Of a stretch of DNA of 64,000 nucleotides, positions 4,366 to 10,531 are shown one piece after another; within the stretch, counting starts at the first letter, position 1, and every line of letters starts with the position of its first letter. The notes beneath the pieces are model-generated. The model was given only the letters and a program-made list of their open reading frames with translations, was not told the DNA's origin and ran no database searches. Both the position numbers and the translations under genes were made by a program. Origin of the DNA: Thermoflexus hugenholtzii (lineage in GTDB: Bacteria; Chloroflexota; Anaerolineae; Thermoflexales; Thermoflexaceae); contig NZ_CP076326.1 in NCBI RefSeq assembly GCF_018771565.1, positions 1,364,001 to 1,428,000 of the forward strand, written 5' to 3'.

Positions 4366-5073
4366 TCAGCGATCGCCGTGCGCTTCCCCCTCGCTGTGCG
4401 CCAGCTCCCGCAGCGTATCCAGATCCCGGATCCAGATGTATCCTCCCCGCTCCGTGCGGATCCATCCGGCCCGGGTCCAGCGGCTCAGGATCCGGATGGC
4501 CGTCTCCAGGGTGGTGCCCGCCATACGGGCGATATCTTCCCGGGAGAGGGGGATCGTGATCCGAAAGCCCTCGGCTTCGGGCTGGCCGGCGCGCTCCGCC
4601 AGGGTCAGCAGCACATAGGCGATGCGGTTCTCCACCCGCTCCAGGACCAGCGTCCGAATGGCCATGGCCCGCTCCAGACGCTGACCCAGCATCTGGAGCA
4701 ACCGGACCGCCACACGGGGGTAGCGCTCCAGGAGCTCCAGATAGGCGGCCCGAGGGATCCGCAAGACGGTGACGGGGGTGGCGGCCTGAGCAGTGGCAGG
4801 GTTACGGCTGAGCAGGAGGGTTGCCCCGCCGAACACCTCCCCCGGCCCCAGGATCTCCAGGATCACCTCCTTGCCCGGGGAGGCCTGACGCAACATCCGG
4901 ACCCGTCCCTCGGCCACGATCCAAACTGCGTCGGCCTCATCGCCCTGATGGAAAATATAACGTTCCGCCGGAAAGGAGAGCACCTCCGTCCAGTGGCCGA
5001 TCTCGTGATAGGCGTCTACGTCCAGGCCCGCGAACAGAGGGGCTTTCTGCAGGATCTCGATCAGGGAACCCAT
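4366..5073 (-). CDS. Crp/Fnr-family transcriptional regulator
   Basis: A 235-aa one-component regulator. The N-terminal cyclic-nucleotide-binding fold (about residues 10-125) includes GEVFGGATLLLSRNPATAQA. A long dimer helix follows, then a C-terminal winged helix in which LSREDIARMAGTTLETAIRI carries the recognition helix. There is no cysteine in the protein, so it is not an Fe-S-sensing Fnr. The ligand might be a cyclic nucleotide or, as in Dnr-like members, heme. The frame runs on to 5478, but the ATG at 5073 after GGGGA fits family length. A target could be the Crp-like palindrome at 8010-8027, but that link is inference. Confidence 0.88.
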   Translation of the reverse strand: MGSLIEILQKAPLFAGLDVDAYHEIGHWTEVLSFPAERYIFHQGDEADAVWIVAEGRVRMLRQASPGKEVILEILGPGEVFGGATLLLSRNPATAQAATPVTVLRIPRAAYLELLERYPRVAVRLLQMLGQRLERAMAIRTLVLERVENRIAYVLLTLAERAGQPEAEGFRITIPLSREDIARMAGTTLETAIRILSRWTRAGWIRTERGGYIWIRDLDTLRELAHSEGEAHGDR

Positions 5074-5108
5074 CCATCGATCCCCGGGACCAATCATCCG
5101 ACTTCCCC

Positions 5109-8125: not shown

Positions 8126-8269
8126 ATGGAGAAAGAACAGGTGCCTCTGGGGCAGGCCCTCTTCGATGAGCTGTTCCTCCTTTTCCTCCTCTCCCTTGTC
8201 ATCAGCCTGATCCTTTACAACATCTGGGGCCTGCTGGATCTGCTGCGAACCCCTGTAGGGATCCCGTGA
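8126..8269 (+). CDS. Small membrane subunit (IIa-like) of heme-copper enzyme
   Basis: A 47-aa ORF with an excellent ribosome site (GGAGGAGGT at 8112-8120). It has a charged N-terminus MEKEQVPLGQALFDEL, one hydrophobic helix (about residues 17-33, FLLFLLSLVISLILYNI) and a short tail. It lies 16 bp before the CuA subunit gene. The position and one-helix design match subunit IIa (CbaD) of Thermus ba3 oxidase, whose gene also precedes subunits II and I. There is no sequence motif to prove homology; the assignment rests on size, topology and order. Confidence 0.75.
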   Translation: MEKEQVPLGQALFDELFLLFLLSLVISLILYNIWGLLDLLRTPVGIP

Positions 8270-8285: not shown

Positions 8286-8804
8286 ATGTTCGCACCGCCG
8301 CGGGTGTGGTGGAGGCCGCTGGACCGCCTGGAGCGGACCTGGCTGGGGCTGGCCTTCGCCTGGTGCCTGGTGCTCTTTATCATGATGCCGGTCTGGTTGA
8401 TCCTCGGCCGGCATAACGTCCCGGCGACCACTTATCGAGCTGCCCCCACGCAGTTCCAGCAACGGGTGGAGGAATTCGTCCGCAAATATCAGGTCGGCAC
8501 GGAGAAGGGCATCCCGGTCGTGGAGCCCCCTCCCGGGGATGTCTACCTCCTGGCCCGTCAGTGGCAATGGTACCCCATCCTCAAGCTCAAGAAAGGACAG
8601 ACCTATCGCCTCCACGTCTCCTCCATCGACGTTCAGCATGGTTTCTCGATCCAGCCCGTTAACCTGACGTTCCAGATCCTCCCGGAATATGTCTACGTGA
8701 TCACACTGACTCCGCTGACGAGCGGGGAGTTCTCCATCGTCTGCAATGAGTTTTGCTACCTCGGACATCACGTGATGGTCGGGCGCATCCTGGTCACGGA
8801 TTGA
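8286..8804 (+). CDS. Heme-copper enzyme subunit II, CuA type
   Basis: A 172-aa membrane-anchored cupredoxin. One TM helix (about residues 20-42) is followed by the CuA domain. All ligands are present: His118 (DVQHGF) and the cluster CNEFCYLGHHVM, giving Cys153, Glu155 (backbone), Cys157, His161 and Met164. The short length and single helix match B-family (ba3-like) subunit II. It would accept electrons from a soluble c-type cytochrome or copper protein and pass them to subunit I. A ribosome site AAAGGAGG precedes the ATG. It sits between the small subunit gene and subunit I, 14 bp before the latter. Confidence 0.92.
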   Translation: MFAPPRVWWRPLDRLERTWLGLAFAWCLVLFIMMPVWLILGRHNVPATTYRAAPTQFQQRVEEFVRKYQVGTEKGIPVVEPPPGDVYLLARQWQWYPILKLKKGQTYRLHVSSIDVQHGFSIQPVNLTFQILPEYVYVITLTPLTSGEFSIVCNEFCYLGHHVMVGRILVTD

Positions 8805-8818
8805 GAAAGGAGGCTGGC

Positions 8819-10531
8819 ATGGCGGCTCCAGCCATTCCGCTCGGCGAAGAGAAGGCGATCTTCCGCGTTTGCCCGGTGACCCGGTTGCGGGTGGATCTGG
8901 CGGCGGAACGGATGATCATCGCCAACGCCACCGCGGCGGTGATCTTCCTGCTCGTCGGCGGGGTCATGGGGCTGCTGCTGGCCCTGACCCGCTGGGAAGC
9001 CGTCCACCTGTTGCCGGCCACCTGGTATTACCGCTTGGTGACCGGCCACGGCTTCAACATGCTGGTGGCCTGGATCGTCTTCTTTGAAGTGGCTGGGCTT
9101 TATTTCGGGAGCACGGTGCTCCTGAACGCCCGGCTGGCAAGCCCCTGGGCGGCTCGCCTCGCTTTCGCCCTGATGCTCCTGGGCGCCCTGCTGGTGAACG
9201 GGATCGTCCTCGCCGGGCGCGCGGATGTGATGTTCACGGCCTATGTTCCCCTGAAGGCCCATCCCCTCTTCTATCTGGGGGTGATCCTCTTCGCCGTGGG
9301 CGCGTTGATCGCGGTAGCGCTCTTCTTCGCGAACCTCCTCATCGCCCGCCTGGAAGGTCGCTATACGGGCTCCGTGCCCCTGGTGGTCTTCGGGCTGGCG
9401 ACGGCCGCCATCATCGCCACCTACACCCTGCTCTCCGGGGCCATCGCCTTCATCCCCGCCTTCTTCTGGTCCCTGGGATGGCTGCGCACCTACGATCCGG
9501 GCTTCTATCGCAACCTCTTCTGGGGCTTCGGGCACCCGGCTCAGCAGATCAACCTGGCCGCCATGGTGGCGGTGTGGTATGCCCTGGCGGCCATCACCGT
9601 CGGCGCCACGCCGATCAACGAGAAGCTCTGCCGGCTGGCTTTCGTGCTCTACATCCTGTTTATCAACCTGGGCGCCGCTCATCACCTCCTCGTAGATCCC
9701 GGCCTGAGCTTCGCGTGGAAGATGTTCAACACGTCCTATGCGATGTATCTGGCCGTCCTGGGGAGCCTGATCCACGCCTTCTCGATCCCCGCCGCTGTGG
9801 AAGTGGCGTTGCGGCGCCAGGGATATCGCCGGGGGCTCTTCGAGTGGCTACGCCGGGCTCCATGGCAGGAGCCGGGGTTCGCCGCCCTGGTGGTCTCCAT
9901 GGTCCTCTTCGGCTGGCTGGGAGGGGTGAGCGGGGTGATCATCGGCACGGAGCAGCTCAACATGCAATTCCATAACACCCTGGCGGTGCCCGGGCATTTC
10001 CATGCCACAGTGGTCGGGGGCACCACCCTGGCCTTCATGGGTCTGACCTATTACCTCATCCCGCTCATCTTCCGGAGGGAGCTCCGGCTGAAGCGCCTGG
10101 CCTCGTATCAGCCCTATGTGTTCGGTTTCGGGATGTTGCTGCTGATCTTAGGCTTCCTGTTCAGCGGCACCCTGGGGGTTCCCCGCCGGGACTGGGCGGT
10201 CTTCAAAACCCCCGCCGCTTTCTCCACGCTGATCCCGGAATCCGCTCAGCTGACCCTTGCCATGGCGGACATCGGCGGCGTGATCGCCGCCATCGGCGGC
10301 GCCATGTTTATCCTCATCGTCCTGAGCTCCGTGCTCACCGGAACGGTTCAGGAAGCCCGCTCCCTCCGCCTGATGGCCGTGAGCCCGGCGGATCCGCCCG
10401 AAGCAGCGGAAACCGCTCACGAGGAGCCCCGGGGGACCTTCGTGATCGTGCTGGCCTTCCTGGCGTTCTTCATCCTGGTTTACTTCCGGAACTGGTGGTT
10501 GTTGGGGTTCCGGAGCTGGCTGGTGCATTAA
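8819..10531 (+). CDS. Heme-copper enzyme subunit I, B-family, catalytic Tyr replaced by Gln
   Basis: A 570-aa polytopic protein of about 14 TM helices that carries the heme b and heme/CuB centre. Ligands by alignment from memory with Thermus ba3: His77 (VTGHGFNML) and His393/His395 (PGHFHATVV) for the hemes; His239 (GFGHPAQQ) and His288/His289 (GAAHHLLVDPG) for CuB. In oxygen reductases the residue four after the first CuB His is the cross-linked Tyr (HPxVY); here it is Gln243. Loss of this Tyr is a mark of nitric oxide reductase branches, so the product may reduce NO rather than O2. Start at 8819 after AAAGGAGG. Last gene of the operon, followed by a clear terminator. Confidence 0.9.
   Translation: MAAPAIPLGEEKAIFRVCPVTRLRVDLAAERMIIANATAAVIFLLVGGVMGLLLALTRWEAVHLLPATWYYRLVTGHGFNMLVAWIVFFEVAGLYFGSTVLLNARLASPWAARLAFALMLLGALLVNGIVLAGRADVMFTAYVPLKAHPLFYLGVILFAVGALIAVALFFANLLIARLEGRYTGSVPLVVFGLATAAIIATYTLLSGAIAFIPAFFWSLGWLRTYDPGFYRNLFWGFGHPAQQINLAAMVAVWYALAAITVGATPINEKLCRLAFVLYILFINLGAAHHLLVDPGLSFAWKMFNTSYAMYLAVLGSLIHAFSIPAAVEVALRRQGYRRGLFEWLRRAPWQEPGFAALVVSMVLFGWLGGVSGVIIGTEQLNMQFHNTLAVPGHFHATVVGGTTLAFMGLTYYLIPLIFRRELRLKRLASYQPYVFGFGMLLLILGFLFSGTLGVPRRDWAVFKTPAAFSTLIPESAQLTLAMADIGGVIAAIGGAMFILIVLSSVLTGTVQEARSLRLMAVSPADPPEAAETAHEEPRGTFVIVLAFLAFFILVYFRNWWLLGFRSWLVH

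Follow-up and report, generated by a model that had tools for sequence, protein, structure and literature searches.

The NO reductase eNOR, known since 2008 (Hemp and Gennis 2008) and in Chloroflexi since 2015, is defined by three features: a Gln where oxygen reductases have the cross-linked Tyr, a relationship to the B-family, and a gene for a cupredoxin subunit II immediately upstream (PMC8756737, PMC4653789). It is described as a two-subunit enzyme for which one proton channel is predicted (PMC8756737), has been reported from archaea and Chloroflexi (PMC8756737, PMC4653789), and is counted in a 2024 paper among four biochemically characterised NO reductases (PMC11388526). In Ardenticatena maritima, nirK and the eNOR genes form part of one operon (PMC4653789). 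The cNOR and qNOR enzymes belong to the same superfamily and share the reaction inferred here (2 NO to N2O), but have an active-site Glu, and their second subunit carries heme c or is quinol-oxidising and fused (PMC8756737), while the protein described below has Gln243 and CuA. The NO reductases bNOR (the CuA-NOR of Bacillus), sNOR, gNOR and nNOR are also derived from the B-family, and bNOR likewise has CuA; at the active site, however, an Asn (CuA-NOR, sNOR) or an Asp (gNOR) is found (PMC8756737, Table A4) rather than a Gln.

Active-site residues and fold of subunit I

The locus analysed lies in a 64,000-nucleotide stretch (the window) of the single-contig, 3.3-Mb genome of Thermoflexus hugenholtzii. 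An open reading frame at positions 8819-10531 (+) of the window translates into 570 residues plus a stop and matches the Pfam family COX1 with E = 6e-66; its ATG, at 8819, is preceded by AAAGGAGG. All six metal-binding His are present (H77, H239, H288, H289, H393 and H395, numbered via alignments). The alignments place Gln243 four residues after the first CuB His, in the stretch F237-G-H-P-A-Q-Q243-I-N-L; the motif HPxVY, with its catalytic Tyr, is absent from the protein, which has HPAQQ instead. Gln243 is no sequencing or chance effect, since all 44 diverse homologues in the alignment have Q242 and Q243, while all 15 ba3 sequences have Val and Tyr at the corresponding positions. The initial annotation had claimed that the six metal ligands are present and that Gln243 replaces the catalytic Tyr, and both the translation and the alignments bear this out. 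Altogether, residues E90, Q242, Q243, N245, Y278, N304, Y307 and H319 were invariant in the eNOR clade and missing from ba3 sequences. In two other eNORs, encoded on a Thermus thermophilus plasmid (L117:7983-9668) and in a member of the Aquificota (L103:7007-8671), a Lys replaces the second His of HFH (position 395, a ligand of the low-spin heme), the remaining ligands being retained.

Sequence comparison of subunit I with solved proteins (PDB) identified ba3-type (B-family) oxidases as the closest, and gave no match at E ≤ 0.001 to a cNOR or qNOR of known structure. An AlphaFold2 model (mean pLDDT 82, pTM 0.87) has the fold of the superfamily, with Z values of about 34 to ba3 and aa3 oxidases in a structural search whose best 50 matches were taken up by A- and B-family chains. 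The ba3 O2 reductases (that of Thermus thermophilus and the genome's own, at L002) share with this protein the fold, the six metal-binding His and a CuA subunit II, but differ in having HPxVY where HPAQQ is found here, in an identity of about 33%, and in forming a separate clade. The K-channel analogue is partly common to both: Tyr254 and Ser316 are retained, whereas Val250 stands in place of ba3 Tyr244, and His319 occupies the position of ba3 Thr312 and A-family Lys362. The roles of these residues we take to be those they have in the K-channels of ba3 and aa3 oxidases. Since part of a K-channel-like path is kept, the protons probably come from the cytoplasm, a plausible route in eNOR judging from these residues, and the reaction may conserve energy.

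Placement among heme-copper enzymes

About 110 homologous loci (49-97% identity) were fetched from Chloroflexota, other bacterial phyla and archaeal MAGs, all of which have H-x-x-Q-Q at the Tyr site. An orthologue scoring at least 495 bits was found in 20 of 301 Chloroflexota genomes, in which the ba3 paralogues with HPxVY reached 211 bits at most, leaving a gap between the two groups. A scan of named genome contigs provided 80 further loci from Chloroflexota and other phyla. Copies were found on plasmids of Thermomicrobium roseum, Thermus thermophilus and Defluviimonas, again with H-x-x-Q-Q in every case; the homologues on haloarchaeal plasmids all have the Tyr, and were used as ba3 rows. Searches of phages and of viral contigs found no eNOR in either. 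Among named organisms, Candidatus Thermoflexus japonica and Candidatus T. tengchongensis come closest, with 91% identity in subunit I, and another genome of the genus Thermoflexus encodes a protein with 97% identity. The expectation of a Chloroflexota-like genome, also part of the initial annotation, agrees with the origin of the window.

A maximum-likelihood tree was built with 68 rows (44 eNOR, 15 ba3, A-family and the second COX1-like proteins described below). The 44 eNOR rows occupied one side of a branch with support 99/97, recovered in 98% of the bootstrap trees, apart from the A-family rows and from the 15 ba3 rows, which formed a branch of their own (100/99). Subunit I was placed outside the O2-reducing clade and within the monophyletic Gln clade, so that the tree position named in the initial annotation as a refutation, inside the O2-reducing oxidases, was not recovered. 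The connection to the biochemically characterised eNOR, reportedly the Rhodothermus marinus enzyme studied by Murali et al. in 2024, runs via the published definition of the family, and it is the published active-site residues that set subunit I apart from bNOR, sNOR and gNOR.

The locus shows the published marks of eNOR, namely the Gln at the Tyr site, the B-family relationship, the cupredoxin subunit II immediately upstream and all the heme and CuB ligands. With the family as represented by Ardenticatena maritima, SURF MAG 42 and Rhodothermus marinus it has in common a subunit I of B-family origin in which Gln occupies the Tyr site, a CuA-type cupredoxin subunit II directly upstream, and occurrence in Chloroflexota. 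Taken together, the COX1 match, the tree, the residues and the fold make it very probable that the gene at 8819-10531 encodes an eNOR-type catalytic subunit, and that the three-gene operon specifies a CuA-containing NO reductase of B-family (ba3-like) descent, with NO as the substrate to be expected from the family. The kind of enzyme is already known, and the interpretation originally put forward, a CuA-containing, B-family-derived NO reductase with its own small subunit, appears right: the B-family-like sequence, the superfamily fold, the Gln clade and the complete CuA site (see below) support it.

Many loci of other lineages encode, beside eNOR, a second COX1-like protein of 420-530 aa (L094, L095, L098, L099, L102, L106, L107, L108, L110, L112, L114, L129 and others; for example L106:4382-5788 and L102:8724-10202). 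It has lost the CuB His pair (HH replaced by FLYDP or similar) and kept G-H-x-x-Q and P-x-H-Y-H; seven such proteins formed one clade sister to eNOR, with support 100/100 and long branches. No CuB-less partner of this kind was seen in the genome to which the window belongs. A 134-aa frame (L004; G000:C1:563175-563345 and the surrounding frame, P0002) gave a weak, 23.5-bit match to the C-terminal part of COX1, and looks like a short relative or a fragment of a heme-copper subunit I.

Subunit II and a conserved small gene

Subunit I is the last of three genes on the forward strand, each preceded by a good ribosome-binding site. The first (8126-8269) specifies a small hydrophobic single-helix protein of 47 aa, MEKEQVPLGQALFDELFLLFLLSLVISLILYNIWGLLDLLRTPVGIP, and its ATG follows GGAGGAGG; after 16 bp comes the gene for subunit II (8286-8804), which is separated by 14 bp from that for subunit I. 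Subunit II (172 aa) consists of one N-terminal membrane helix and a CuA cupredoxin domain, and matches ba3 subunit II with E = 5e-14 (phmmer). Its CuA motif is complete (CNEFCYLGHHVM plus an upstream His), the ligands being provided by the His of HGF and then by C-N-E-F-C-Y-L-G-H-H-V-M; with the pattern used, the motif was retained in 106 of 107 partner subunits II. The genes for the two subunits are adjacent in 107 of the 109 loci, and contig ends truncate the other two. Neither a heme c subunit (NorC) nor a fused N-terminal domain was found: the partner is a CuA cupredoxin, and subunit I is unfused.

In 84 of 107 eNOR loci (a count in which some places were fetched twice), the gene just before subunit II is a relative of the small gene, with the motif Q..fDniwLLf..sl.Is...Yn.WG (consensus gQ..fDniwLLfllsl.Is...Yn.WGl). 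A scan of 18,041 frames from eNOR loci and related ones gave 59 occurrences of a strict form of the motif, at most one per locus, and the 47-aa protein had no Pfam match. It is probably a third subunit of eNOR, comparable to subunit IIa of ba3 oxidases. Whereas the published eNOR has two subunits (PMC8756737), a third, single-helix gene precedes subunit II here and in most relatives.

No promoter stood out near the operon, the lone sigma-70-like site being located after the gene, and terminator-like sites in the vicinity were at chance level. A gene for a Crp/Fnr-family regulator lies on the other strand 3 kb before the operon (4369-5103, -), with hisG, hisC and hisB-like open reading frames in between.

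In the mechanism proposed for the enzyme, electrons from a soluble carrier would enter at CuA in subunit II and pass through the low-spin heme (H77/H395) to the heme-CuB site (H393; H239, H288 and H289), where, by analogy with the family, two NO would be converted into N2O. Gln243 replaces the redox Tyr, and the usual Tyr of helix VI is therefore unusable for breaking an O-O bond.

Nitrogen-oxide genes and the role of the enzyme

The same genome encodes NirK (314.8 bits against a curated cut-off of 296.3), a Sec-dependent type NosZ (884 bits, cut-off 625) and NrfA. NarG was under its cut-off, which gives no grounds for proposing a nitrate reductase; NirS is considered absent, its lone match covering 56 residues and scoring at about the cut-off. 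Separate A-family and ba3-type oxidases are also present, and no further strong COX1 match was found in the genome. Since NirK, eNOR and NosZ are all encoded, the path from nitrite through NO and N2O to N2 looks complete; eNOR would take NO from NirK and hand N2O to NosZ, and so would supply the NO step between them. The proposal of an NO reductase fits this setting, NO reduction itself being assigned from the family. The operon stands about 540 kb from nirK, unlike that of Ardenticatena maritima, in which the two are together (PMC4653789). In four relatives' contigs nirK is near eNOR (L128, L097, L129 and L094), and among these relatives genome G088 has the gene row nirK, small gene, subunit II, subunit I and heme O synthase. 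Among Chloroflexota, NirK above the cut-off was found in 12 of 20 eNOR genomes and in 27 of 281 others (Fisher p = 3e-7, uncorrected for kinship); of the eight eNOR genomes in which it was not found, one (G064) has NirS. Just upstream of nirK, a 360-aa membrane protein without a Pfam or NCBIfam match is encoded in the T. hugenholtzii genome (L130:7251-8330, -).

Two readings would make the protein an O2 reductase. Tyr307, in helix VIII, might replace the Tyr of helix VI, NO perhaps being reduced as well: it was invariant in 44 of 44 eNOR rows, was never a Tyr in the 15 ba3 rows and neighbours the site at which ba3 sequences have an invariant Thr (Thr302 by our own count), and helix VIII of eNOR has a one-residue insertion. 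A catalytic Tyr displaced to helix VII is found in the C-family cbb3 oxidases. In the alignments, however, Tyr307 never falls exactly on the position of the active-site Thr; moreover, two ordinary oxidases already exist in the genome, nirK both co-occurs and co-localises with eNOR, and eNOR is counted as a biochemically characterised NO reductase (PMC11388526), all of which makes this reading very unlikely. That Tyr307 reaches the heme-CuB site and stands in for the helix VI Tyr in an enzyme reducing both NO and O2 is likewise judged improbable. The other possibility is a standard ba3-type O2 reductase that has suffered a loss-of-function substitution in its lineage; it would agree with public records, in which the relatives are annotated as cbb3-type or ba3-type cytochrome c oxidase. 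This reading is barely credible, since the Gln and further residues specific to the clade are fixed in all of it, in the archaeal MAGs as well as in the Chloroflexota, and nearly all members retain the metal ligands; with the Gln fixed and the ligands retained, the protein is under selection as an enzyme.

A different matter is whether the same NO reductase serves only to remove toxic NO rather than taking part in energy-conserving denitrification. The absence of NirK above the cut-off from eight of 20 eNOR genomes would suit such a role. On the Thermus plasmid (L117), genes for an Rrf2-type regulator and a DUF542 protein, which are typical of NO stress, come after that for eNOR (L117:9718-10385). 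In culture, T. hugenholtzii left N2O unconsumed, and its anaerobic growth was not stimulated by nitrite (PMC8129789). The culture results and the eight genomes, like the distance between nirK and the operon, also count against the eNOR reading itself. Set against this are the presence of NirK and NosZ in the same genome, the conservation of K-channel-like residues and the one proton channel predicted for eNOR (PMC8756737), and a purely detoxifying role, while possible, is considered rather unlikely.

The earlier study of Thermoflexus genomes reported nos and nrfHA and predicted nitrite and N2O as electron acceptors; neither an NO-forming nitrite reductase nor an NO reductase is named in it, and its main text makes no mention of nitric oxide or NirK (PMC8129789). 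The gain is modest: an NO step for Thermoflexus, which had been missing, and a third gene that is conserved. This gene, together with the invariant residues specific to eNOR, offers targets for structural and mutational work. Since eNOR is annotated as a cytochrome c oxidase, annotation misses denitrifiers of this kind. From the T. hugenholtzii genome, with its NirK, eNOR and NosZ, the conversion of nitrite to N2 can now be expected, which corrects the earlier reading of Thermoflexus, an abundant hot-spring lineage.
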